Assembly (NCBI GenBank): GCA_014762505.1
Contig: JABURS010000043.1
Span: 186,001 to 250,000, forward strand
Source of the DNA: Chromatiales bacterium
GTDB taxonomy: Bacteria; Pseudomonadota; Gammaproteobacteria; SpSt-1174
Reading direction: 5' to 3'
Length of the DNA stretch: 64,000 nucleotides
The notes beneath the pieces were generated by a model that was not told the DNA's origin, did no database searches, and worked only from the letters and a program-made list of their open reading frames with translations. A program made the position numbers and the translations under genes. This document shows positions 46,448-63,654 of this stretch, piece by piece. Each line of letters starts with the position of its first letter. Within the stretch, counting starts at the first letter, position 1.

Positions 46448-47596
46448 ATGCCATTTAAGTTGATAGCGAGAAATGGCTCGCGAATTCAACAAGTTACACG
46501 CAGGGATATCAGGCAGATGGATTTTCCAAATCCCGCGTCAGGCAAGCCAAGCCCCTTTCAAATCGGCGGGTTGTTCCTGATCGCACCCAATGACTACCTG
46601 AGAATCTATGGGCACTCGATGCGTCGGGCGTTCGCAGATATGGGGCATGAGTCTACGTGGAAGGGGTTGGAGCGCTGCGCTGAAAATAAAAAGCCTCCGT
46701 CCGCGCGCCTCCAGAACAAGATTGTGTCGATGCTTTCGGATGAGGCACTGCGTGGTCGTGGAGAAGCGTTGCTAGAAGAACTTGTCGCCGCAGATTCCAC
46801 TAAGCCGATTCCAGGACCTTGGGAATCCTTCCTAAATGGCATTGTGGTTGTCGGAGAAAACCAAGAATTCTCGTATCTGCAGAGCTACCTCATTGAGATC
46901 GAGCGATCCGAGGCTAAAGTGCTTGGGAAGTTTTACAGGGAAGATTTCGCCGGTGCCTTCGCGGACGCGCACCGCAGCGAATCTCTTTCGCCTGCCTTAT
47001 GGCCCGAACTGAGAGAGGTATTCTCAGAAGCTAGGAAGAGGAAGGAGTTGTTCGCCGTTCGTTGGTCAGTCGGATTGGAGCTGTTACTGAGCATATTCGT
47101 CGCGATAGAGGTGGATTCGGCTGATACGTTAGGTGAGGTCTCGCTGGAGTCTCTCTTGCCTCGGGGCGAGCGTAATCCGACCGCACGGTTCTTTGAGTGG
47201 CTGTTGCGAGAATCTAATTGTTGCTCGATTCCCGCGCTTTGTGACGAACTGGCTTCCTGTGGCGTCGAAATCGAAGAGTCCACGCTAGAGCGGTGGAAGG
47301 GCGGTAAGCATCAGCCCGCAGTTGAGACGGTTGAGGAGATTGCGGCGCTTTTTCAAGATGACAGCCGAAAAAGACAACTCGTTGTTTTATTGGCAAATGC
47401 TTCCCGCCTGCTCAATTTTATTGCGTATGTCTCCAATCATCTGATCGAGGCACGACATCAGGTAAAATCGGTGTTGCCGAAATGTAGTGTTTTTTTTCCG
47501 GGTTTGCCTTTCGGGTATCAGGACCTTCAGAGTTGGCTTTGGGGGCGCTATCCCGTTTGGCGCGAAATCCATAGAGTGCGAAGCACAAGGAGTTAG
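46448..47596 (+). CDS. Hypothetical protein with a possible helix-turn-helix segment
   Basis: A 382-residue protein I do not recognise. It is mainly helical and soluble, with no signal or membrane segments. Around residues 258-300 (CDELASCGVEIEESTLERWK ... QPAVETVEEIAALF) it resembles an XRE-type helix-turn-helix, so a regulatory or DNA-binding role is possible. It faces the E2-E1/JAB operon convergently, and its stop codon lies inside the shared hairpin at 47591-47618. Codon use is more AT-rich than the core genes. It is the first gene inside the island after fxsA. Confidence 0.6.
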   Translation: MPFKLIARNGSRIQQVTRRDIRQMDFPNPASGKPSPFQIGGLFLIAPNDYLRIYGHSMRRAFADMGHESTWKGLERCAENKKPPSARLQNKIVSMLSDEALRGRGEALLEELVAADSTKPIPGPWESFLNGIVVVGENQEFSYLQSYLIEIERSEAKVLGKFYREDFAGAFADAHRSESLSPALWPELREVFSEARKRKELFAVRWSVGLELLLSIFVAIEVDSADTLGEVSLESLLPRGERNPTARFFEWLLRESNCCSIPALCDELASCGVEIEESTLERWKGGKHQPAVETVEEIAALFQDDSRKRQLVVLLANASRLLNFIAYVSNHLIEARHQVKSVLPKCSVFFPGLPFGYQDLQSWLWGRYPVWREIHRVRSTRS

Positions 47597-47618
47597 CCCC
47601 GAGATTCCGGGGCTAACT
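47591..47618. terminator. Perfect 11-bp hairpin between convergent genes
   Basis: A stem AGTTAGCCCCG/CGGGGCTAACT with a 6-nt loop lies at the 3' ends of the plus-strand 382-residue gene and the minus-strand 43-residue peptide gene. It contains the plus-strand stop codon. The T-run is missing, so it is a likely but not certain bidirectional terminator. Confidence 0.6.
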
Positions 47619-47632
47619 GAGATCCCGAGGTC

Positions 47633-47764
47633 TTACCCTTTTCTAGGCGGATTGTTGCCGCGGCCGCCTCCAGAGGGATTGCCGGTCCTGCTCGGCCAGT
47701 TGGGATTATTGCCGGCCATGATACGGTTGGCGGTTGATGTTTCCAGTTTTTCCACGTTTCTCAT
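47633..47764 (-). CDS. 43-residue Gly/Asn/Pro-rich peptide at the end of the E2-E1/JAB operon
   Basis: A very short reading frame of 43 codons plus stop, with a convincing ribosome-binding site (GGAGAG six nt before the ATG). An N-terminal segment of about 17 residues could form a helix (MRNVEKLETSTANRIMA). The remainder is low-complexity and probably disordered: Asn, Pro and Gly with a GGGRG run at 32-36. The chain ends P39-P40-R41-K42-G43. It lies 132 nt downstream of the JAB gene on the same strand and just before a hairpin. The C-terminal Gly and the context make it a candidate substrate or modifier of the E2-E1 enzyme. Function is inferred only from position and composition. Confidence 0.55.
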   Translation of the reverse strand: MRNVEKLETSTANRIMAGNNPNWPSRTGNPSGGGRGNNPPRKG

Positions 47765-47896
47765 AGGGTTCTCTCCAATTCGTCTGCCGGGCCATTCCGG
47801 CAGGGAAAAAGAGTGGCATATTTGCGAGGTCCTGCTAACCGCAAGGTTTGGAAATTTGTAGCGAGCTTGGCGAATAAGTAGCGATTGAGGGGGTGC

Positions 47897-48391
47897 TTAG
47901 TCGAATACTTTTGACTGAACTTCCACGACGCCACATGTGGGCCACCAGGAACTGTATTTCGATGGCTGCCAAAGTGCTCGTGTCCAGCGGGCCGGATATC
48001 CCCCCCATATGCCCATAATTGGAGGCGCGACTGCACCGTCCGTGGTGCGAGCTATCTGGTGGAGCGTTTTGCGGTCTGTGGAGCTGGTTATCGGGCGCCC
48101 ATGGGGGTGAGTGTGCCAGTCCCCAAGATAGAGTGCAGTGCCTTTTGTTTGTTCGAATAGCCTTGTGATCTCGTCCTGCTGAAACCCGTCATCAGGCTCG
48201 AACCCATGCCGAGTCGACTTGGATAGCGGTCCCGGGCCGATGATATGGGTCACCACTAAGTGCGGATCATCCGTGCAATACCCTAATAGCATGCCGCCAA
48301 CTTCGTATGGGTAACAATGGTCGGCAAGCGCCTCGATCGTCTCGACGACTTCACGTTGTAGCCATACCAAGCCAGTCGATTTCCTAATCAT
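47897..48391 (-). CDS. JAB/JAMM metalloprotease (Cap3/deubiquitinase-like)
   Basis: A 164-residue stand-alone JAMM-domain protein with all expected zinc-site residues. Glu30 is in YEVGGMLLG, H93-x-H95-x7-S103-x2-D106 reads HTHPHGRPITSSTD, and a bulky hydrophobic insertion follows. This is the isopeptidase fold found in eukaryotic deubiquitinases, in Cap3 of type II CBASS, and in bacterial ubiquitin-like (Bil) systems. Its gene overlaps the E2-E1 gene by 8 nt, so it presumably removes or processes whatever that enzyme attaches. No CD-NTase is present. Confidence 0.93.
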   Translation of the reverse strand: MIRKSTGLVWLQREVVETIEALADHCYPYEVGGMLLGYCTDDPHLVVTHIIGPGPLSKSTRHGFEPDDGFQQDEITRLFEQTKGTALYLGDWHTHPHGRPITSSTDRKTLHQIARTTDGAVAPPIMGIWGGYPARWTRALWQPSKYSSWWPTCGVVEVQSKVFD

Positions 48392-50099
48392 GGCTAGGGC
48401 ACTCTGGGTGGCGCGGAATTTCCCCGGTGCTGATCGTGGGGGCCGTAATCTTCCCGCTATCGTCCCAGAGATTGATCACCATCCAGTCGTAGCTAGTATC
48501 TGGATAGGCTTCAGGATGTTGGCGGCAAAGCGTGCTGACAGCCAGTCGGCTGGCGTTAAGGCTGACTTGATCAAGGTCCATTCCCGTTCCGGGGAATGCC
48601 GGGTGAAAGCAACCCAGCGGCTGGATATGTGGCGGGTTCTTGTCTTCTACGGGGTGCGGGATCAGTGCCCCTGTGTGGCGCTCAAGACATCCCCAGCATC
48701 CTTCGGTCTTGCCGGGTACGATCCTCCAAATCAAGCCGCCACGGGCGCCATAGGTGCTGCTGGCTCCTAAGATTGGAATATTCCTTTCTCGAGCGTATTC
48801 CGTCAGGAAATGCGTAATGCAGTACTCCGCGGTTGCATCAATCACGAGATCGGCTTCAGGGAGTGCGTCATCGAGGACCGCCGCCTCTCCTCGTGAATCA
48901 GCACGCTTTGCCTCGCCAATGAATCCAGCGAATCCCGTGACCTCCAAAAAGGGGTACTCGATCTTTAGTATTTGGGCTAACTGAAACGCTTTTAAGTGTC
49001 CCGTGCAAGCAAAGCCATACTGCCAGCGAACAGTATTGGCGAATTGAATATGGTCGCCGTCCACTATGTGAAGTCGACCAATTCCCGCACGTGCCAACTG
49101 ATAGGCAATAGCAGAACCAATAGCGCCGGCGCCAACTAGAAGTATCTTTTTGTTGGCTAATGGGCTCAGCATCGGTATCCGAGCCTGCCAAGTCTTTCGA
49201 TCAACTCGATCAGCGCGAGCTAGATAGTAAATTTCTTCCCGGTGTCTGTTCTTTTTTCCCTTGCGCAGATCCTTTTGGCGCACAATAAAAAGCCAATGTT
49301 CTTCAGTCTTGCCTGCCTCAATCTCGTCAGGGAAAAGTACGCCGACGATATCAGGTCCACCTTGATACTTCGGCTTCAATAGATCCGGGTAGTGTGTCAG
49401 TACATGAGTAAGAACTCGTTTTTCATCGCCATTCGGGGGAGGAGTATCAAGCCGGACCCACCGTCCATGAAACGTATGACCCTTGAGCATCGGATTGGTC
49501 GTAATGGAATCATCGAGCGTTCCGATTACATTTGCTTGCTCATCCAAAATCTGCATGGCCGCGGCGCGAACTACGCGCATATCCATCGGCTTTTCCTGGC
49601 AGGTAAACGTGATCGTGCCTCGACGGATACTCTTATCAATCGAATACTGGTCGACCGCAACGAAGGAGCCTGGGTGATACAGCATTTGTCCGCTGACCTG
49701 GAACCCCTCTTGAGTTTCATCAGGGAGATACCCATCAGGGTGTTGATGTTCGACGATCAGTTTCGGGATTTGCTCCGCGAGGTACCCGGCAAGCGTGTCG
49801 CTTGTATGCCAGTGTGTGAGCGGCTTTTCCAACATGCACACGAGACCGCTGCTGTCCTCGATGTGCCTGCCGTTCGGGAGATCGCGAGAGAATACTTCGG
49901 GAGGGAAGAAAGGGAAGTCCGGTGGATACCATGCTTCGATTCTGTAGTCTTGTCCTTCATGCGGGAAGACCAAGTGAAGAACGAGCCTTCCTTTGGCTCG
50001 TTGGTCTCCATCTTCCTCAAATTCGTAACCAGCTGTGGCCAGGGCGTCCTTTTCCCGCTTCCAGATCTCGGGCCACCGATCATACCAGGGGGCTGACAT
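48384..50099 (-). CDS. E2-E1 fusion (ThiF/Cap2-like ubiquitin-conjugation enzyme)
   Basis: A 571-residue two-domain enzyme. Residues 1-~125 form an E2-like (UBC) fold with YPPDFPFFPPEVF and a candidate catalytic Cys88 in SSGLVCML. A middle linker (~140-300) has no recognised motif. Residues ~310-571 form an E1/ThiF domain with nucleotide loop G323-A-G325-A-I-G328 and the acidic pair D347/D349. The LVIDATAEY strand and C468-x2-C471 with further cysteines at 497 and 525 are also present. This order (E2 then E1 in one chain) is that of CBASS Cap2. Its start overlaps the stop of a 40-residue peptide gene (TAATG), and its end overlaps the JAB gene. It should adenylate a C-terminus and pass it via a thioester to a target. 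Confidence 0.93.
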   Translation of the reverse strand: MSAPWYDRWPEIWKREKDALATAGYEFEEDGDQRAKGRLVLHLVFPHEGQDYRIEAWYPPDFPFFPPEVFSRDLPNGRHIEDSSGLVCMLEKPLTHWHTSDTLAGYLAEQIPKLIVEHQHPDGYLPDETQEGFQVSGQMLYHPGSFVAVDQYSIDKSIRRGTITFTCQEKPMDMRVVRAAAMQILDEQANVIGTLDDSITTNPMLKGHTFHGRWVRLDTPPPNGDEKRVLTHVLTHYPDLLKPKYQGGPDIVGVLFPDEIEAGKTEEHWLFIVRQKDLRKGKKNRHREEIYYLARADRVDRKTWQARIPMLSPLANKKILLVGAGAIGSAIAYQLARAGIGRLHIVDGDHIQFANTVRWQYGFACTGHLKAFQLAQILKIEYPFLEVTGFAGFIGEAKRADSRGEAAVLDDALPEADLVIDATAEYCITHFLTEYARERNIPILGASSTYGARGGLIWRIVPGKTEGCWGCLERHTGALIPHPVEDKNPPHIQPLGCFHPAFPGTGMDLDQVSLNASRLAVSTLCRQHPEAYPDTSYDWMVINLWDDSGKITAPTISTGEIPRHPECPSHD

Positions 50100-50221
50100 T
50101 AGGCGACTTTACGCGGGCCCTTCGGGCGAGGCGGCTGTTCCGGGGGCCGGTTATCCGGCGGCCCTTTTGGAACATCGGGATGATCGGGTTTGTTAGGATG
50201 GTTTTGGTTTTCACCGGACAT
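50099..50221 (-). CDS. 40-residue proline-rich peptide leading the E2-E1/JAB operon
   Basis: A 40-codon reading frame with a good ribosome-binding site (GAGGAG, 7 nt before the ATG). Its stop codon overlaps the E2-E1 start as TAATG, so the two should be translationally coupled. The peptide contains about a third proline plus Asn, Asp, Lys and Arg, has no hydrophobic core, and ends P36-R37-K38-V39-A40. It is too short and too polar for a beta-grasp ubiquitin-like protein. Given its position, where CBASS has the CD-NTase and Bil systems have a ubiquitin-like gene, I infer that it may be the modifier whose C-terminal Ala is activated. A start two codons upstream is possible but lies too close to the ribosome-binding site. 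Confidence 0.6.
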   Translation of the reverse strand: MSGENQNHPNKPDHPDVPKGPPDNRPPEQPPRPKGPRKVA

Positions 50222-50405: not shown

Positions 50406-51165
50406 ATGTCGTTCGACAGAGCTTATAGGTTTTCAAGGCCCATACCGATTATTCGGTGATAACAGCCTTTTTTCCGCATTTCCTGAGGAGTTCTCGGGGG
50501 TTTACGTATGGTGCATTGATGCTGGAGATCGCGTGCTCCCCTACTATGTGGGTATGTCAGAGCAGGTTCTTTACCGAACCCGCGAGCATATAAGGTTGCA
50601 TATGACCGGTAGTTACTGGGTGTACGATGCTGAGAGTCTGGCCGATGCTCGCAAGTCGGTAATCTATAAGCCGATGTCAACCGACGAAGCTTTAGCCATA
50701 GGGATCGACTTCTACCGTACGGCGCGTTCTCAACTTGAGCGTACGTGCTTGATAGTCGCGCCAATCGACGTCGACCGGGCATGGCTGCTGCGAGTGGAGT
50801 CGGCTTTGATTCGTGAGCTTGCGGCGGAACCCAACCTATCCAGAATTCAGGACAACGGGGGCGTCTCTAAACGTACGGCGGAGGGTGATCGGGTTGATAT
50901 TCCTATCTCCTTGCCCGATGTGGTGGCACTGACTCTCAAAAGCTCTCGGTATGATTCAAGGCACTTGATCAACGGTGTCAATGAAGTGGTCGCAGAGCCC
51001 GTCGGAACTGCGGATAGAGTTCATCGCAAACAGCATCTACTCGTAGGATACTTTGGCATAGTGATGTTCAGTATTCTGATAACACCGACAATCAGTGTAA
51101 TATTCATCTATTACCAGTTAATCAGTGGTTTCCGGGACATCGCTATGCGTAAACTGAAGCCATGA
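50406..51165 (+). pseudogene. GIY-YIG nuclease-domain protein with a membrane tail; apparent 1-nt frameshift near the start
   Basis: The uninterrupted frame runs from about 50377 to 51165. It reads GVYVWCIDAGDRVLPYYVGM, the GIY...YIG core of a GIY-YIG nuclease, followed by a conserved EH and GSYW, then charged sequence and a C-terminal hydrophobic segment (LLVGYFGIVMFSILITPTISV). No ATG/GTG/TTG start precedes the GIY motif in this frame. The ATG at 50406 (MSFDRAYRF) is in another frame and would join the main frame exactly if one T of the TTTT run at 50430-50433 were removed. The feature may be a real frameshift mutation, a sequencing error or a non-canonical start. It overlaps the following DUF2384 gene by 4 nt. 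Confidence 0.65.
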
Positions 51166-52151: not shown

Positions 52152-53018
52152 TCAGGATCTATCACCAAATAGATCGGCGATTGCGCCATCGAATACCCTT
52201 TCGTAGGAGAATTCCATCGGAATTCGGGGCGCGGATTGTCCTTTGTCTTTCTTCAGACAGTGAGAAATGGCTTCTTTCCCAGACACCGCCCGAGCTGCAT
52301 CGCTCTTACCAACCTGCTCGAATCCATATTGGATAATCTTCCAAAGTCTTCTTTGTCTGTTCTGATGCCAGCGCCATGCGTGATCGTGTGGGAATGGAAT
52401 GGGTTCTTGTTTGCGAAGATCTCTTTGGCAACTAGCACAGTAGCAGAATGCGTCTGGTGTCCTGACGAGAAAATCATCCGGGGCATACTCGGGCCTTTGG
52501 ATGTGTCCGCAAGTGCAAGCATTCAACATGATCGAATGGTGTTGTTCGCACATCACATAAAAGTTAAGTCGCCATTTAGCACGAAAGTAAGGGGTGTCCG
52601 CCGCCAAGCATGCTGGGCAAAACCGGTGTACTGACCCCTGGTGGTCCTTGGTGAAATACTTGATGAAGGGCTCTTGATTGAACTCGGGTCGGATAAGCCT
52701 CGCATCGAAGCTGCAACGCTTCTCGACGTCGGTCTTCAGGAACTCTTGGATATTTATCCACTGCTTGTTAGTTGCGCGAATATCTAGGTCAGAGATCAGG
52801 GTGCTGATCTCGAGGAGTCTTTTGATAGAAACAACTGGTACTCGATTCGCGTGAGAGAGCCGAAGTAACCACGATGTGAGGGATTCTCCTGGCAGAAATT
52901 CTTTATAGGAAATCAGACGATTATGAAGAGGCACCATTTCAGGGATTAAAGTGCCAGCCGGAACGACGGCGAAATTAGGGTCTACATCCTGAATCAAAGT
53001 TTCGTTCTTAGCGGGCAT
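52152..53018 (-). CDS. tniQ: TniQ-family target-selection protein, second copy
   Basis: A 288-residue TniQ-type protein. The N-terminal TniQ domain (FLPGESLTSWLLRLSHANRV) is followed by zinc-binding clusters: HRFCPACLAAD ... YVMCEQHHSIMLNACTCGH, then FCYCASC. TniQ/TnsD proteins recognise the insertion site or an RNA guide and recruit TnsC. It differs in length and sequence from the neighbouring TniQ (340 residues), and its start overlaps that gene's stop by one nt. It is the last gene of the transposition operon. It could provide a second targeting specificity. Confidence 0.88.
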   Translation of the reverse strand: MPAKNETLIQDVDPNFAVVPAGTLIPEMVPLHNRLISYKEFLPGESLTSWLLRLSHANRVPVVSIKRLLEISTLISDLDIRATNKQWINIQEFLKTDVEKRCSFDARLIRPEFNQEPFIKYFTKDHQGSVHRFCPACLAADTPYFRAKWRLNFYVMCEQHHSIMLNACTCGHIQRPEYAPDDFLVRTPDAFCYCASCQRDLRKQEPIPFPHDHAWRWHQNRQRRLWKIIQYGFEQVGKSDAARAVSGKEAISHCLKKDKGQSAPRIPMEFSYERVFDGAIADLFGDRS

Positions 53019-54040
53019 TAATACTCCAGTGGTAACTCAATCTGCCAGGGGCGAGATCTACTGATGGTCCTCCTTCGTCTGCCCCACGATCGATTAAGCT
53101 GATACTCATACGCTAGCCGAATGAAGCGGAACTCCTCACTGCCCATGTCCTCCGATAGGTATTCGTATACCGCGTTATATTCTTGTCTGGTCTTGTGTTC
53201 TTCCGAGTTCGTGGTCTTGGTATCATTGCTGATTGGCAACGCTGCGAGAAACCGTTCTGGCCAGTGTGATAGAACCGTGTGAGCCCGCTCCAGCACGAGA
53301 TCCGAAGTGCTGCATTTCTTTGGTAGACGATCTTTGTGGCGGCCGGGCGCGAGAGTAGGAAGCACCTCGCCCAAGAGCCACAGTGTCTTGAATAATCCAT
53401 CGAGAGATAGATTGGCTAGTTTTTGTCTTATCTCATGCGATAGCGAGCGACACTGGGTCGGGGAGGAATGAGAATCGATGGCCCGCCGAATCAATGAGGC
53501 GATAAATAATGGGAAGCCGTCTGTGCCCAGTGCTATAGCATCGGTCAATCTGGCGCCGCAGGTGCAAATAGACACACCAGGGCGTTTCCACCGTAGAGCG
53601 CGACCACATTCATGGCAGTTGCGAAGTAATGACACATTGTGCATCGGGCAGCAGGTATTCAGCGTGAGTTCCCATTCTGCACGTAAATATGGTTCCGATA
53701 TCAGGCAGAGAGGACAATAAGCCAGGCTGCGGGACGAAATAAAATATGGTTTTGTTATTGGTTCGCCGTTTAGGCGCCACATGGTACCCCAAGCACCGGT
53801 TTTCACCCCGAAACCGAATAATTGAGAAACTTCGTCGGGGTGGCAGTTGCAAAGTTCCGCTAAGCGGCCTACGTCAGAGACTCCGGGCGGCCGCGATGTT
53901 CGGCCGTTCAAGTGTTGAAGAATCTGGTTAGGGTTCCGGAGTCCGTTTCCCTCGGTCAGCCTTAGGAGAAAACCGACTAATGACTCCCCGATTATGGGGC
54001 GACAGGTAAATAATAAGGGTATAGTCCCAAGCAAGTTCAT
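53018..54040 (-). CDS. tniQ: TniQ-family target-selection protein, first copy
   Basis: A 340-residue TniQ protein with the N-terminal signature IGESLVGFLLRLTEGNGLRNP and zinc-binding groups YCPLCLISEPYLRAEWEL ... CCPMHNVSLLRNCHECG ... CTCGARL. The C-terminal ~120 residues are of the kind that read DNA in TnsD-like proteins. The gene overlaps tnsC by 4 nt and the second TniQ gene by 1 nt. Together with that copy it probably links the TnsC ATPase to the target; which sequence it reads is unknown. Confidence 0.92.
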   Translation of the reverse strand: MNLLGTIPLLFTCRPIIGESLVGFLLRLTEGNGLRNPNQILQHLNGRTSRPPGVSDVGRLAELCNCHPDEVSQLFGFGVKTGAWGTMWRLNGEPITKPYFISSRSLAYCPLCLISEPYLRAEWELTLNTCCPMHNVSLLRNCHECGRALRWKRPGVSICTCGARLTDAIALGTDGFPLFIASLIRRAIDSHSSPTQCRSLSHEIRQKLANLSLDGLFKTLWLLGEVLPTLAPGRHKDRLPKKCSTSDLVLERAHTVLSHWPERFLAALPISNDTKTTNSEEHKTRQEYNAVYEYLSEDMGSEEFRFIRLAYEYQLNRSWGRRRRTISRSRPWQIELPLEY

Positions 54041-55005
54041 CGCCTCTTCACAAACGGGTGAGATCCCGTTCCGAAAACCTGCCGAAATGCAGCGATAAGA
54101 TCGGTCTTCCGGAGTGCGGAAGCGTTTTCAATGGATGCAGCCAACACTGCAGCCGAAAGAAGGCGACGCAAGGCGCGCATATTCCCCTTCGTACACTGGT
54201 AAATAGGATGCGCATAGCGTTCGCTGAGGAAGGAGCGCCTCTCTAGGGGAAGCGCCTCGTCGAAAGCATCAAGCACGCCATAGAATGTCGCATCAAACTC
54301 GAACGGCACAAGCCGGTGTTCTGCACTAATGCGCGACGCCAGTTGGTCGCAGATATGAAAGAATCGATCGAGCAAAGGGGTTCCGAGAAAGCCTTGGGGG
54401 ATATCGGTGTTGTCGTAGATGCGTTTGAGTGTATTCCCTATAACACTAGCGCGAGACTCTCCGCGCCCTTCCGCGAACTCCTGGGCCTCATCGATGAGTA
54501 AGAATTGTACGTTCCGGGTTCGCATACCTTCAGAAACCAAATCGCTGAGGTCGACGCGATTCTGCCCTTGGCTAAAGGGGAAGCCAAGGGCGACCAGGAG
54601 ACGACGTACCAAGTCCAGCCCCGAGAGAGAGGCTTCTAACTGGATAAAGAGGACCGGTATCGATACGCTATCATCGCCGATGATGGTGGGGTGTTTTTGA
54701 AGAAAGTGCCGACATATGAAGGACTTGCCGAGACCGCTGGCACCGACGATACGGACGCCGCCGGGGTCCGGTATCGAGGACCGCGACAAGGTTTCTTCTA
54801 GGATATTCAGGCCTTCTGCAAACTGCGGGTGCGGAACAGTAATAGTTCGGACGAACTCCGCCCGCTCCTGCGGCGTTCCTTTGAGGGCCTGCTCACGCAG
54901 TTCGGCCGGTGTTATCGAGTGAGCAACACGCTCTCCGGAAGAGCTGCTATTCGATAATGCAAGGGAGAGATTGCGGGCCTGCATCCTAGAGTACCGACCA
55001 GCCAA
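54037..55005 (-). CDS. tnsC: AAA+ ATPase TnsC/TniB
   Basis: A 322-residue AAA+ ATPase that bridges the TniQ proteins and the transposase. Walker A is GASGLGKS (88-95) and Walker B FLLIDEAQEF (168-177), with sensor and arginine-finger regions following. The size is that of the compact TniB type rather than Tn7 TnsC (~550). Its start lies within the last 20 nt of tnsB, in another frame, so the genes are coupled. ATP-dependent filament or ring formation on DNA and target immunity are the expected roles. Confidence 0.93.
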   Translation of the reverse strand: MAGRYSRMQARNLSLALSNSSSSGERVAHSITPAELREQALKGTPQERAEFVRTITVPHPQFAEGLNILEETLSRSSIPDPGGVRIVGASGLGKSFICRHFLQKHPTIIGDDSVSIPVLFIQLEASLSGLDLVRRLLVALGFPFSQGQNRVDLSDLVSEGMRTRNVQFLLIDEAQEFAEGRGESRASVIGNTLKRIYDNTDIPQGFLGTPLLDRFFHICDQLASRISAEHRLVPFEFDATFYGVLDAFDEALPLERRSFLSERYAHPIYQCTKGNMRALRRLLSAAVLAASIENASALRKTDLIAAFRQVFGTGSHPFVKRR

Positions 55006-56995
55006 ATGACGGTTTGGTAGTGATCGAAGGCCCCAAGTCGCTGCTGTCTCCTGGGTCGGAAGGAGCTGAAACAGGCTTTTCGACAGCAGTGATGATCGAG
55101 CTCGATTCGCCGGCGATGACCTGGTTAGAGTTTATGCCCGCGTACCGCGCCAGTTGCTTTTTGGGTGATGTCGATTTGCGTTCCAACTCATCCACAATCT
55201 GTGCTTGAATGAGTTCGCGGGACTTCCACAGGCTTTCATCGGTTATTTTGTCGCCATAGTTACGCCTCGCTGTGTCCCTAATCAGGTTATGCTGTAGAAG
55301 GGAGAGGCCTTCAGCATACTCGGGCCTTAAGCACGGGACGGGGAAAAACTCGCGAGTACGGGGATCCAGAACGCGGATTTGGCCGAGATCATTCTCATTT
55401 AGATGAAAAGTCACCTTGGATGATTTTCCGCCTTTCCAGCGAAACAGGTCCGCAAGCTGCGTGCTGTTACCGTAATGCAAATGGTGCTTGCGAACGCCAT
55501 CGTGACGTAAAGAGCCGGAATGCCGTGTGCCTAGTAGGGTTTCGACGACTTCCGGGTTGTGCGGGAATACGCGGGGCACCTTTTCGATGCCCTCGTTGAA
55601 AAGATCGAGCGGCCGACCGTGCTTTCGCTCCGAAAGCGAATTGTTATAGATGTCACACACCCACTTATATAGTATCCAGACAAAGCTAGTGAAGCGCACA
55701 ACAGCGTGTTTAGCAGGATCATAGTCTTTGCGGAGATCCAGTCGAGGGAACGTCTTTCCTGGCATGGTCTCGAGTAGGTAAGACAGTTCCCGGAAAAAGC
55801 GCTCTACAGGACCTTTGAACCACGGCGTTCGTGCGGCACAGTACTCATAGTGTGAACCGAGTTGTAGAACTGCCAAACGATAACGCTCGGAGAGAAAGTC
55901 AGCACCGCGATCAGTGACGTAAGTGGTGGCAAGTCCCCATGGGAGTTGATTCTCGATATCGTGAAAAAAAGCGGGGGTGTTGGTGTGTGGATAGATGGAA
56001 TGTCTAAGTGCTCCAAAGATAGAGTCAACCCGGGGCCCGGAAAACGAAATATATAGCCCAATAATGGCACCTGAGAAGCGATCTCGAATGATCGTGATCC
56101 ATGGGCGGCCGAGGGGTATGAATAGTTGATCGTCAATGACGAAAAGGTCGACTAGGGAGTGATCGATTTCGACATACTCAAGCGGATAGTCGGCTGGTAA
56201 GTGACCTTTAATCAGGCGGCACTTTCGTCGGGCCTCGGCACGCCCATGTTGCGCAACGAGGACTTCGTATCGGTCGAGTTCTCCGACGATGCGATATAGC
56301 GTGCGTTCGCTAATCTTGATTTCGATAGGGCGATTAGCTTCGACCAGTGATTGATTGAATGTGCGCAGACGTTGCTCATATTCATGATAAATACTAGATA
56401 CAGGCTGCGAGTGGGTGCATAAGTATTGCTCTTCAAGAATGTCGTCTATGATCTGTTGATGCTCACTCGAGCGCCGTTTACGCTCGGCAGGGATCGCGCG
56501 GCGATCAAGCAGGGAATATGGATCGTCATTGCTGTCCGCATAGATGCGCATCCAGCGACTTAAAGTCGACGCCGCTGGCGGTTTTTCGTCTTTCAAATCG
56601 GAGGCGGCACGGGGGATCTCGTCCTTGAGTAGGTCGAGGCAGCCGCGCGAAATACCCAGTCGTCGCATGTGGAGAATGTATCGAATACGTAACATGAGAT
56701 CGGCTTTCGCCTTCTCGTTCTCGATCTCGGATAGGTCCATGACGCGAGGTGGATCATATGGCCGCTCCAATTGATCAGGATGCAATGCCAGCTCTTTTTC
56801 TGTTGAGACAACCGGGATGATGACGACGCGACGAGACTGCAGCTCGTCGAAAAAACTAGCCTCTGTCAGATCGATGATTTCACCTGTCTGGATCGTCTCA
56901 AACTGGAGGCGGCTCCCAATACGGCGACGCAGTTCATAGGAGAGGCCATCACGCGAGATGACCAGGCCTTCCGTAAGTAGTGTACGCGCTGCCAT
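54986..56995 (-). CDS. tnsB: DDE transposase TnsB/TniA
   Basis: A 669-residue rve-type (RNase H fold) transposase. The catalytic triad is D278 (EYVEIDHS), D362 (YVTDRGADF) and E398 (WFKGPVERFF), with the usual spacing. Preceding helices form end-binding HTH domains (about 95-250). A C-terminal ~150 residues of the Mu-type beta-barrel/TnsC-interaction region follow the catalytic domain. TnsB cuts and joins the 3' ends of the element. An SH3-like N-terminal segment (about 8-65) resembles the adjacent 114-residue protein. The gene starts 2 nt after that protein's stop. Confidence 0.95.
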   Translation of the reverse strand: MAARTLLTEGLVISRDGLSYELRRRIGSRLQFETIQTGEIIDLTEASFFDELQSRRVVIIPVVSTEKELALHPDQLERPYDPPRVMDLSEIENEKAKADLMLRIRYILHMRRLGISRGCLDLLKDEIPRAASDLKDEKPPAASTLSRWMRIYADSNDDPYSLLDRRAIPAERKRRSSEHQQIIDDILEEQYLCTHSQPVSSIYHEYEQRLRTFNQSLVEANRPIEIKISERTLYRIVGELDRYEVLVAQHGRAEARRKCRLIKGHLPADYPLEYVEIDHSLVDLFVIDDQLFIPLGRPWITIIRDRFSGAIIGLYISFSGPRVDSIFGALRHSIYPHTNTPAFFHDIENQLPWGLATTYVTDRGADFLSERYRLAVLQLGSHYEYCAARTPWFKGPVERFFRELSYLLETMPGKTFPRLDLRKDYDPAKHAVVRFTSFVWILYKWVCDIYNNSLSERKHGRPLDLFNEGIEKVPRVFPHNPEVVETLLGTRHSGSLRHDGVRKHHLHYGNSTQLADLFRWKGGKSSKVTFHLNENDLGQIRVLDPRTREFFPVPCLRPEYAEGLSLLQHNLIRDTARRNYGDKITDESLWKSRELIQAQIVDELERKSTSPKKQLARYAGINSNQVIAGESSSIITAVEKPVSAPSDPGDSSDLGPSITTKPSFGWSVL

Positions 56996-56997
56996 GG

Positions 56998-57342
56998 CTA
57001 TCTCCGGCTTCGGGAAAATGGCGCGGCGCCGATTGCTTTCGCGGAAATGCCGTCCATTTCCGATTCCAAGTGCGCATATTTGAGCTGTTTCGCGAGCGCC
57101 ATAAGTCCGTCACGCGAGAGCGATAGCAAGGGTGAGTTCATCTGCTCGGATATCACAACAATCTCTCCACGACCCAGCAGGTCACCAAAATGTCTGAGGT
57201 CGACGATGGATACGCTGTTGTCCCCGAGCCGATTCAGCCGCCAGGCATCGATTAGCTTCCGGTCCACCTTCCAGAACCAGTCGTTCCAGAACACTACCAT
57301 GCCGACCCGAATTGCGAACTTGCGCATAGAGAAGTCCTTCAT
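56998..57342 (-). CDS. Small protein between TnsA and TnsB, resembling the TnsB N-terminus
   Basis: A 114-residue reading frame ending 2 nt before the tnsB start. Its first ~70 residues (VGMVVFWNDWFWKVDRKLI ... DLRHFGDLLGRGEIVVISEQ) can be aligned by eye with residues 8-65 of TnsB (EGLVISRDGLSYELRRRIG ... SFFDELQSRRVVIIPV), suggesting a duplicated SH3-like module. The frame upstream overlaps the 3' end of tnsA by 160 nt if the first ATG is used, or ~120 nt from the ATG at 57300. Whether it is a free subunit, or once part of a longer TnsA or TnsB chain, is unclear. Confidence in the gene itself is moderate. Confidence 0.55.
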   Translation of the reverse strand: MKDFSMRKFAIRVGMVVFWNDWFWKVDRKLIDAWRLNRLGDNSVSIVDLRHFGDLLGRGEIVVISEQMNSPLLSLSRDGLMALAKQLKYAHLESEMDGISAKAIGAAPFSRSRR

Positions 57343-58000
57343 GTCCGTGATGTGGAAGTGAAACCCGAGACTCCTGGGTGATGGGATGTTTGAAGCTGAC
57401 CATGAGCCGTTTCGTGGCGATCATGATGTAGACGGCGGCCAGGCTGGCCTCGGGGCGTGAAGGGTCGACTAACTCGCCTATCGTTGGTTGGGACTCCGCG
57501 CATCTCCTGATGCGAGCGATATCCTCGTCGGGTAGACGTCGATTCATATATCCAGCAAGCAAGTTTACGTTGCGACTGACAACGCTGGTCTTATCCAGTT
57601 GATCATCGGTGAGGTAGTGGAGCGCAAAGCCCTGGTCATTGATCATCTGCGCATGTGTGCTCAGGCGTTCGCGTGTGTCATTCTCCAGCAGCCGAGCTAG
57701 CGGTTTCACTTCAACAAAGATGGTGTTTCCAGCGAGCTCAATCTGTATGTCAGGTGTATAACTGCGGACAGCTCCAGTGTCGGTCCGGTATGGAATCGAC
57801 GGTTGAGTGCCAACGACCGTAATATCAGAACAAAGCAAGAGGGTGCGTAACGCGAGGCGCTCGAGATAGGATTCCCATTGGAGGAAGTCCTCGCCGTTCG
57901 GCATCGGAATGCCACCGACCCCGCGGTAAGGGACGTCGGTTCGAATGTTCCGCGGCCGCCTCTGCGCGGGAGTCTCCGTTTGTGGGTGCTTTTTGCGCAT
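57182..58000 (-). CDS. tnsA: Endonuclease TnsA (3' end possibly frameshifted)
   Basis: A 272-residue TnsA-like restriction-fold nuclease that cuts the 5' ends of the element so transposition is cut-and-paste. The catalytic residues are visible: E43 (QWESYLERLAL), D84 (SYTPDIQIEL) and E97-x-K99 (IFVEVKP). The homologous part ends near residue 220 (KRLMVSFKHPITQESRVSL). The last ~50 residues are Arg/Gln/Gly-rich, lack family character and overlap the 114-residue gene in another frame. This indicates read-through past the ancestral end. It is the first gene of the tns operon. A 39-codon frame sits 9 nt upstream. Confidence 0.9.
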   Translation of the reverse strand: MRKKHPQTETPAQRRPRNIRTDVPYRGVGGIPMPNGEDFLQWESYLERLALRTLLLCSDITVVGTQPSIPYRTDTGAVRSYTPDIQIELAGNTIFVEVKPLARLLENDTRERLSTHAQMINDQGFALHYLTDDQLDKTSVVSRNVNLLAGYMNRRLPDEDIARIRRCAESQPTIGELVDPSRPEASLAAVYIMIATKRLMVSFKHPITQESRVSLPHHGHEGLLYAQVRNSGRHGSVLERLVLEGGPEANRCLAAESARGQQRIHRRPQTFW

Positions 58001-60453: not shown

Positions 60454-63400
60454 CTACTGCGTATGCACACTATGTGGTTGCCAAGCGGAAGAGAGCGCTT
60501 CAGCTTGCTGTAGGACCGTTTGAACGGCGGCATCCTGGAGATCAGGTGGATAGCCGTACTTCCTTAGTATCCGTTTCACGAGAACACGCATGCGTGCTCG
60601 GGCCGACTCTCGGTGGGCCCAGTCGACCGTTACGTTTTTCCGTAGACTCAGAAGGAGTTCGTGTGCGATGACCCGAAGCTGGTCATCGCCCATAGCCTCG
60701 ACAGCCGATTCGTTCTCTGCGAGGGCGTCGTAGAAGGCGATTTCTTCTTCGGAGAGGCCTTCTTCCTCCCCACGCGCCCGGGCAGCCCGGATCTCGTGGG
60801 CAAGCTGTATCAGCTCCTGGAGAACTTCGGCGGTGGTGATTGCATTGGCGTGGTACCGGGCGATGGCATCTTCCAATCGCTCGGTGAAGGCTCGGGTTTC
60901 CACGACATTCGTTCGGCTGCGGGACCGGATACTGTCGTTGAGCAACTTGCGCAGGGCTTCCAGCGCCAGATTTTTCTTCTCCATTTGCTGGACTTCCCGC
61001 AAGAACTCGTCCGACAGGATGGAGATGTCCGGCGACTGGATCCCTGCGGCCGCGAGGATATCGACGATCTCGGTGGATATTACCGAACGGCTGATGATCT
61101 GTTGCACGGCAAGTTCCCGGTCCTGGCGCGAACTGCCATTGGTGGCGGACGACTTCGCCAGGGCGGCACGCACGGCCTGGAAGAACCCTACCTCCTCTCG
61201 GATCTCTCGCGCCTCATCTGAGCAGGAGGCCAAGGCAAATGCGCGGGAAAGGGAAAGCACGGCATCGGCATAGCGCCGATGGGCCTGCTTTTTACCCTCC
61301 GGCGTGGTTTCTGTAGCTGCCCACTCCTGTTGTCTGGATAGAATCCATTCGATCGCAGCGGCCATCATCGATAGGCGTTCCTGCGCCGTGCCATCGAGTG
61401 CGTCCAGGTAGTGGAGTCCATGGAACATGGCGCGCACGATCTCGTACTTCTCGAGCATCACCGCCACTGCCTCGGCTTCGTCGATGCCGGTCTTGTCCTG
61501 ATCTGGCTTGGAGTACTGCGCGAGGGCAGATTTGAGGCTCTGCGCTATGCCGATGTAATCGACCACCAGTCCGGCCGGTTTGTCCCTGAATACGCGATTC
61601 ACCCGGGCGATGGCCTGCATTAGCCCATGTCCCCGCATCGGTTTGTCGATATACATGGTGTGCATGCAGGGGGCATCGAACCCGGTCAGCCACATGTCCC
61701 GTACGATCACGAGCTTAAGGGGGTCGCCGGGGTCCCTCGCGCGCTTGGCGAGAAGATCGCGCCCGGCCTTGTTGCCAATATGCTGTTGCCACTCTGCTGG
61801 GTCACTGGCTGAGCCGGTCATTACGACCTTCACGGCCCCTTCGTTGACGTCATCGCTGTGCCAGTCGGGGCGAAGTTTGATGATCTGGTCATAGAGTGCC
61901 ACGCAGATACGACGGCTCATGCACACCACCATCGCCTTGCCATCCAGTGCGGCAATGCGGTCCTCGAAGTGCTGCACTAGATCCGCGGCAACTAGCGCCA
62001 GGCGCTTGTCGCTACCCACCAATGCCTCGACGGTGGACCACTTCTGCTTGGTGCGCTCGGCGCTGCCCTCATCTTCACCTTCGAGCAGGGCGTCGATCTC
62101 GGCATCAATGAGCGGCCTTTCGTCCTCGTCCAGCTCGATACGGGCTAACCGGGACTCATAGTAGATAGGCACCGTGGCGCCGTCTTCAACGGCGCGGCTG
62201 ATATCGTAGATGTCGATGTAGTGGCCAAACACGGCCGGCGTATTGACGTCGGTAGCCTCGATAGGGGTCCCCGTGAACCCGATGAAGGAGGCATTGGGTA
62301 GCGCATCACGGAGGTACTTGGCGAAGCCGTAGGATACGTCGCCAGTCTTCGCGTCGATCTTGGCTCGGAAACCATACTGGCTTCGGTGGGCTTCATCGGC
62401 GATCACCACCACGTTGGCGCGGGTGGTCAGCGGCTCATCGACAGCCCCAAACTTCTGCAATGTGGTGAAAATCACACCGCCGGACGCCCGATTCAGCAAT
62501 TCACGCAGGTCCTCCCGGCCTTCGGCTTGAATCGGTGTCTGGCGGATCAGGTCGCGGCAGCTGGCGAAGGTGGCGAACAACTGGTCGTCCAGATCATTGC
62601 GATCCGTGAGTACCACCAGTGTGGGGTTCTCCATGCGGGACTCAAAGATCAGCATGCCCGCATAGAAGGCCATCAGCAGGCTTTTGCCGGAACCCTGTGT
62701 ATGCCAGATCACGCCAGCTTTACGATCACCTTTAGGTTGGCTGTCCACGCTAGGCAGGCCATACTCGGCTGGATCTTCCGCTTGGATATCCTTCTGGCTG
62801 GCTCGTAGCGTGGACGCAACCGCTTTCCTAACCGCATGGAACTGGTGATAGCCTGCAATGATCTTGACTAGGCCATCGGCGCGTTCACTGAACACGGTGA
62901 AGTGCCGCAGCAAATCGAGGAATCGCCTCGGCTCAAACACGCCCTCGACCAGGGTACCTATCTCTGCAGATCCCTTGGGCTCGATACGTGTGCCATCGGT
63001 GGTGCGCCAGGGCATGAAGCGCTCGAGGTCGGCCGACAGTGAGCCCACCCGCGCAGACAGCCCGTCCGAGGTCACCAGCAAGGCATTGGTGCGAAACAGT
63101 GCTGGGATCTGCTGTTTGTACGTCTGTAGTTGGTTGAAGGCCCCGGTCAGGGTGGCCGTTTCGCCACCGGGGGCCTTCAGCTCGATGACCGCCAGGCGCA
63201 GGCCGTTGATGAACACCACCACATCCGGCCTGCGCTTGTAATGACCTGCCACCACGGTGAACTGCTGCACCGCTAGCCAGTCATTTCGCTCTGGGCATTC
63301 AAAGTCGAGTAGCTGAATCTTGCCGGCGGTCAATACACCGTCCTCGGCGTAATACTCTACATCTGCGCCGTCGGTGAGTAGGCGGTGAATACGGCGGTTT

Positions 63401-63654
63401 TCCTCAAGCAGGTTGGGAAGTTCGGATTGCGTGAGGCGGCGGACGGCGTCGGCTCGTGCCTCGGCCGGAAAGTTTGGGTTCAGACGCGCGATAGCGGTCT
63501 CAAGCCGATCCTTCAGCACTACCTCGTCATAGGCCTCCCGCTCCGGGTGTTTGCTATCGGGGCCAATGATCTCGTCCGAGGCGCAGGCAAAGCCTAGACC
63601 TGCGAGCCGTTCCAGCAGCGCGGTTTCCAGTTGGGCTTCGGAAAGAAATGCCAT
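60454..63654 (-). CDS. hsdR: Type I restriction endonuclease subunit R
   Basis: A 1066-residue HsdR: the motor and nuclease subunit of a type I restriction system. An N-terminal PD-(D/E)xK nuclease has D144 and E158-x-K160 ([19 protein letters not shown]). A superfamily 2 helicase follows with [23 protein letters not shown] (DEAH) and FTGTPIEA, then RecA domain 2 with [13 protein letters not shown]-terminal helical region follows the helicase. The HsdM and HsdS subunits needed for function are not in the window and are expected further upstream (to the right). The start overlaps the previous gene's stop by one nt (TGATG). Confidence 0.96.

Follow-up and report, generated by a model that had tools for sequence, protein, structure and literature searches.

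A proline-rich peptide as the proposed modifier of a Cap2/Cap3-like operon from a Chromatiales bacterium

The operon described here, from a Chromatiales bacterium, has machinery of the Cap2/Cap3 kind, an E2-E1 fusion and a JAB isopeptidase, and directly upstream of these enzymes, in the slot that type II CBASS gives to its CD-NTase, it encodes a 40-residue proline-rich peptide with counterparts in distant bacteria. We think it quite probable that the operon performs a reversible protein conjugation of the Cap2/Cap3 type in which the modifier is this dedicated disordered peptide, and not a CD-NTase or a beta-grasp protein. The whole stretch of DNA that was analysed, 64,000 nucleotides of contig JABURS010000043.1, is called the window, and its features are collected in Table 1.

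Table 1. Features of the operon and of the adjoining Tn7-like module (positions in the window)
Feature	Position	Strand	Basis
40-aa proline-rich peptide MSGENQNHPNKPDHPDVPKGPPDNRPPEQPPRPKGPRKVA, proposed modifier	50099..50221	-	counterparts upstream of related E2-E1 genes
C-terminal tail codons Arg-Lys-Val-Ala (R-x-V-G in relatives)	50102..50113	-	
E2-E1 fusion, 571 aa	48384..50099	-	Pfam, invariant residues, Cap2 alignment, AlphaFold model
JAB/JAMM isopeptidase, 164 aa	47897..48391	-	Pfam, NCBIfam, JAMM set, model
43-aa ORF, outside conserved system	47633..47764	-	no homologue found
12-bp hairpin 3' of operon, possible terminator	47588..47617 (approximate)	-	strand folding
Tn7-like module, whole	52152..58000	-	Pfam, NCBIfam; next to operon
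TnsA-like	57182-58000	-	match below curated cut-off
TnsB-like	54986-56995	-	match below curated cut-off
TniB/TnsC	54037-55005	-	Pfam, NCBIfam
TniQ, two genes	53018-54040 and 52152-53018	-	Pfam, NCBIfam

The operon and its enzymes

Four minus-strand ORFs make up the operon: a 40-codon ORF whose ATG stands seven bases after GAGGAG, the E2-E1 gene, which it overlaps by 1 nt (TAATG), the JAB gene, with an 8-nt overlap, and, after 132 nt, a 43-codon ORF followed by a hairpin, at most a possible weak terminator since its z was -1.8 and no clear U-run is present. An earlier sequence-only reading had placed every one of these elements correctly and had claimed that neither a CD-NTase nor a ubiquitin-like partner is encoded among them, in agreement with Pfam, which finds neither and has no match, beta-grasp proteins included, in either small ORF. 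The enzymes themselves were recognised by Pfam as ThiF (1.7e-21) and Prok-JAB (4.9e-12), with Prok-E2_B in the fusion at 1.7e-5, slightly below the cut-off; both match the E1-E2 and JAB families of PADLOC, and in NCBIfam they fall near the 6A-MBL and Cap3 families, below the cut-offs.

The E1 adenylation site, the E1 and E2 cysteines and the JAMM site are complete in the window and invariant in its relatives. In the E2-E1 protein these are His79 and Cys88 of the E2 half and GxGxxG 323-328, D347, R358, K370, D421 and Cys497 of the E1 half (40-41 relatives), and in the JAB protein E30, H93, H95, S103 and D106 (29 relatives). C88 and C497 align with C109 and C548 of Cap2 from the Enterobacter (E. 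cloacae) CBASS plasmid, and the adenylation residues of Cap2 are kept in the same alignment. The AlphaFold model of E2-E1 (pLDDT 85) has full-length Cap2 (7to3) as its best structural match (E 3.6e-26, TM 0.62), followed by Bub, Atg7, ThiF and MccB; the profile of E2-E1 also matches Cap2, its E2 half finds human UBE2L3, and the JAB model (pLDDT 92) is closest to Cap3 (9ild). The branches are long in the tree that separates this E2-E1/peptide family from CBASS. A JAB gene is present in 54 of 56 loci, one copy having an in-frame stop, and its absence from the search results in two Halomonas loci with peptide and E2-E1 (L009, L048) counts against the reading preferred here. In both, a resolvase gene lies downstream where the JAB gene was expected.

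Profile and structure searches with the E1 half matched, among others, MccB and PaaA. In microcin C, MccB, which has a ThiF fold, adenylates the short peptide MccA at its C-terminus. By analogy, the operon might handle its short ribosomal peptide as a RiPP-like precursor, the ThiF-like domain adenylating the C-terminus to give a small toxic or signalling product and E2 and JAB aiding transfer or processing. This is very unlikely, since an E2 whose Cys is invariant and an isopeptidase with its full JAMM set fit conjugation and not microcin C, which involves neither an E2 nor a JAB and whose product is a peptidyl-nucleotide toxin; moreover, the whole enzyme is a far better match to Cap2, and no exporter or other RiPP enzyme was found among the conserved neighbours.

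The upstream peptide and its tail

Distant homologues of the operon on plasmids (E2-E1 26-36% identical) have a proline-rich small ORF at the same place. When 84,980 species genomes were scanned with an E2-E1 alignment, 50 further loci came to light, in Alpha- and Gammaproteobacteria, Bacteroidota, Actinomycetota, Chloroflexota, Planctomycetota and KSB1 (at least six phyla). Related E2-E1 genes (24-36% identity) were compared at 55 other loci, of which 51 have an intact proline-rich ORF immediately 5' of E2-E1 (52 in the raw count, in which L050 was probably entered twice). The search for small frames beside other E2-E1 and JAB operons that the sequence-only reading had suggested thus bears it out for the upstream peptide. 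The four remaining loci comprise one at a contig edge (L011), two whose E2-E1 is missing its 5' part (L047, L054) and one with a frameshift within the peptide gene (L055). With a peptide defined by at least 20% proline and a Val-Gly/Ala end, only 4 of 6,613 other ORFs in the same loci qualified, and none in the corresponding slot of five CBASS controls, so that chance falls far short of explaining the recurrence of the upstream peptide. A direct sequence comparison with the window peptide likewise matched nothing but peptides encoded upstream of E2-E1, and a genome found later through the E2-E1 profile alone (L081) has the peptide too; in a second Chloroflexota copy (L080) the peptide runs through REVG with no stop codon there, and at locus L082, whose E2-E1 is more distant (E 1e-77), a JAB gene is present and no peptide was recognised. 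The edge of the family is set by one conserved E1 motif, because this motif seeded the genome scan, and the window E2-E1 is itself divergent, its identity to relatives being at most 33%, which weakens the case for the preferred reading. The family is rare and patchy in its distribution; no viral copy was found in IMG/VR, and phages gave only MoeB-like matches.

Gene annotation has mostly missed the peptide. Neither the peptide nor the JAB gene is in the gene table of pNGR234a (L004, 3774-3959 and 5686-6240) or of an Arthrobacter plasmid (L001, 3838-3984 and 5716-6255), so that in both a ThiF gene seems to stand alone. The plasmid copies L001 and L002 adjoin genes for DUF305 and copper-binding proteins.

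The 46 distinct peptides are 36% proline overall, almost devoid of hydrophobic residues and free of Cys. Val is at position -2 in all 46, Gly (45) or Ala (one, the window) at -1, and Arg or Lys at -4 in 43; the Val-Gly/Ala tail belonged to the filter, and in an earlier listing, made by proline content, the ORF richest in proline at the site ended in the same way. All synonymous Val and Gly codons occur in the tail, and the median dN/dS over 100 pairs was 0.083, an approximate value, dS being high in many pairs; selection therefore acts on the protein. It appears to be the Val-Gly tail that counts in the peptide. In five loci it is followed by one or two residues (QQ twice, R, Q and QG), in which these peptides resemble ubiquitin-like precursors.

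This pattern of selection bears on the idea that the peptide is a regulatory leader, its proline runs stalling ribosomes and setting the translation of E2-E1, with a host or phage protein as the true substrate. Proline runs do slow translation, and the peptide and E2-E1 genes overlap or almost touch, the peptide gene ending from -8 to +32 nt from the E2-E1 start with a median of 2 nt (47 measured). We nevertheless hold it highly improbable: the C-terminal Val-Gly is invariant and its synonymous codons are free, the spacing is variable, the stop codons are varied, and the tail is also found on a folded protein. This protein is encoded in the peptide's slot in a Hymenobacter MAG (L013, 1602-2090), where the tail R-P-V-G closes a chain of 162 residues that contains two DUF1508 (YegP) domains; the match of a Spirosoma YegP protein covers the folded part only. 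As background, yegP genes have been linked to the capK/capS immune regulators (PMC13373217).

One to four lysines are present in most peptides, which, together with two ThiS/MoaD-type matches on another contig of the genome, the only beta-grasp matches of this type, could suggest that the peptide is a target of conjugation, or a cofactor for E2-E1, and that a host ThiS/MoaD-type protein or other ubiquitin-like protein is the modifier. We judge this highly unlikely, as the conserved part of the peptide is its C-terminal Val-Gly and not a lysine, two peptides have no lysine at all, and the counterpart slot in CBASS encodes the protein that is activated. The peptide is instead probably the tag that E2-E1 attaches, since it recurs with its Val-Gly tail before E2-E1 in dozens of distant bacteria. 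It is likely, more specifically, that the E1-E2-JAB pathway uses as its modifier a free proline-rich peptide, some 45 residues long and without a fold of any kind, ubiquitin's included, which it would read through the R-x-V-G tail, and that this tail can also be carried by other proteins, the DUF1508 protein being an example.

The sequence-only reading had proposed that both short peptides of the operon, the upstream 40-aa and the downstream 43-aa one, replace the modifier. For the former the claim is strongly supported by the recurrence at the same position, the invariant Val-Gly/Ala tail and purifying selection. For the latter it is unsupported: the 43-aa ORF does lie in the operon with a Shine-Dalgarno-like GGAGAG before its ATG and a PRKG end, yet its own frame and this GGAGAG are its whole support, and no homologue of it turned up in plasmids or in any fetched locus, a weak match at chance level being all that the genome gave. 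That both peptides act as modifiers is thus scarcely credible, and the 43-aa ORF was rejected as a conserved partner. A resemblance of this ORF to a DUF5681-type 'GNP..GRP' motif was also dismissed, Pfam having no match with E up to 1.

Comparison with known conjugation systems

Type II CBASS is the closest comparison. The fused E2-E1 architecture with its catalytic residues and the adjacent JAB protein closest to Cap3 are the same, as is the encoding, immediately upstream, of the protein that is conjugated, or here probably is, with a Gly or Ala at the end of its C-terminal tail. In CBASS plasmids the gene immediately 5' of Cap2 encodes the CD-NTase, which ends PKKPGGFA, KSAGFA, KTGRFA, GLFG or SASA, and the same slot in four further loci, known by slot and ends alone, encodes proteins ending TSPRGFA, TSPKGFA or TEPKGFG; a basic, proline-rich tail closed by a hydrophobic residue and Gly or Ala is similar in the window's family. 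The conjugation of a Bacillus cereus cyclase to lysines of PspA proceeds through its KPGGFA end, and Cap3 releases it scarlessly (PMC11153139). The window peptide ends in Ala, unlike those of its relatives, and this was counted against the preferred reading, but it is no objection, because cGAS conjugation requires a terminal Gly or Ala and works with either (PMC10097602).

What differs from CBASS is that the window's family has neither a CD-NTase nor an effector and that a free peptide, disordered and with R-x-V-G/A as its tail, occupies the slot. The operon has no gene of the cyclic-nucleotide effector type, and the case that would have spoken for a CBASS partner elsewhere, a CD-NTase outside the operon, did not materialise, no SMODS match being found in the whole genome with controls that worked. 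Flanking genes of the relatives include no conserved effector, and apart from CapP-like peptidases E2-E1 and JAB have no conserved neighbour; apparent conserved flanking clusters were set aside as largely frames overlapping these two genes. By the criteria of CD-NTase and effector the window operon is not CBASS, and by its modifier it is not Bil or Bub.

Bil (BilABCD) and Bub share with it a bacterial E1, E2 and peptidase for protein conjugation, and Bub also a CapH/CapP-type regulation (PMC13373217), but their modifier is a beta-grasp ubiquitin-like protein and their enzymes are separate or differently fused. The 6A-MBL arrangement, a triple fusion of E2, E1 and JAB accompanied by a metallo-beta-lactamase (Iyer 2006, row 6a; NF058523), also has these three enzymes and neither a CD-NTase nor a ubiquitin-like protein; the window JAB, in contrast, is unfused, the operon has no MBL gene, and the window enzyme scores 72 bits against NF058523, whose cut-off is 320. 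Pup is likewise a small intrinsically disordered protein modifier (PMC5286830), but its ligase is PafA and its depupylase Dop, whereas the enzymes of the operon belong to the ThiF/E2 and JAB families and not to those of PafA or Dop.

Most likely, the E1 half would adenylate the C-terminal Val-Gly/Ala of the peptide, the activated peptide would pass to Cys497 and then to Cys88 of the E2 half, and E2 would join it to lysines of target proteins, from which JAB may take the tag off again, besides trimming the few precursors with residues after Val-Gly. As the operon has no effector or cyclase, the tagging probably acts by itself, most likely against phages. Bil offers a likeness for conjugation as an effect in itself, as its conjugation was reportedly found by Hor in 2024 to interfere with phage assembly.

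No description of such a peptide was found in our literature search, which left out preprints and some likely relevant papers, so that an earlier description is possible. The modifier would be one without a fold, mostly unannotated and seemingly reduced to a tail that an E1 can read. If this is true, E1/E2 chemistry is separable from the ubiquitin fold, tail recognition could be studied in a very small system, and the CD-NTase tail and the free peptide tag may be alternatives in one gene slot.

Genomic context

The operon sits between core genes and a Tn7-like module, beyond which follow a type I restriction system and a PDC-M23 pair. The sequence-only reading had placed it in a mobile island with a probable role in defence, and both points find support: Tn7-like genes adjoin the operon, terminal repeats having been looked for as ends of the element and none found, restriction genes lie nearby, and capP and capH occur at the relatives. 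Among 126 flanking ORFs of 30 loci, the Pfam family met most often was the IrrE peptidase (9), and among PADLOC families capP led (9, best 9e-77), with capH in 3, so that CapP-type regulators flank about 9 of the 30 loci; AbiTii, AbiE and Gabija genes each adjoin single loci. CapH/CapP turn on immune operons after DNA damage, and Bub systems, which are regulated likewise, have not been shown to protect (PMC13373217). Neither capH nor capP is present at the window locus itself, which tells against the preferred reading. Overall, the gene neighbourhoods of the family favour a role in defence.

Two island genes flank the operon, at 46448-47596 (382 aa) and at 50533-51165 (210 aa, with a possible membrane segment), neither with a family match above the cut-off. 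At 60454-63654 of the window, and at 3654-11535 of L085, HsdR, HsdS and HsdM are interleaved with a PDC-M23A/B pair that is similar to HamB-type helicase defence.
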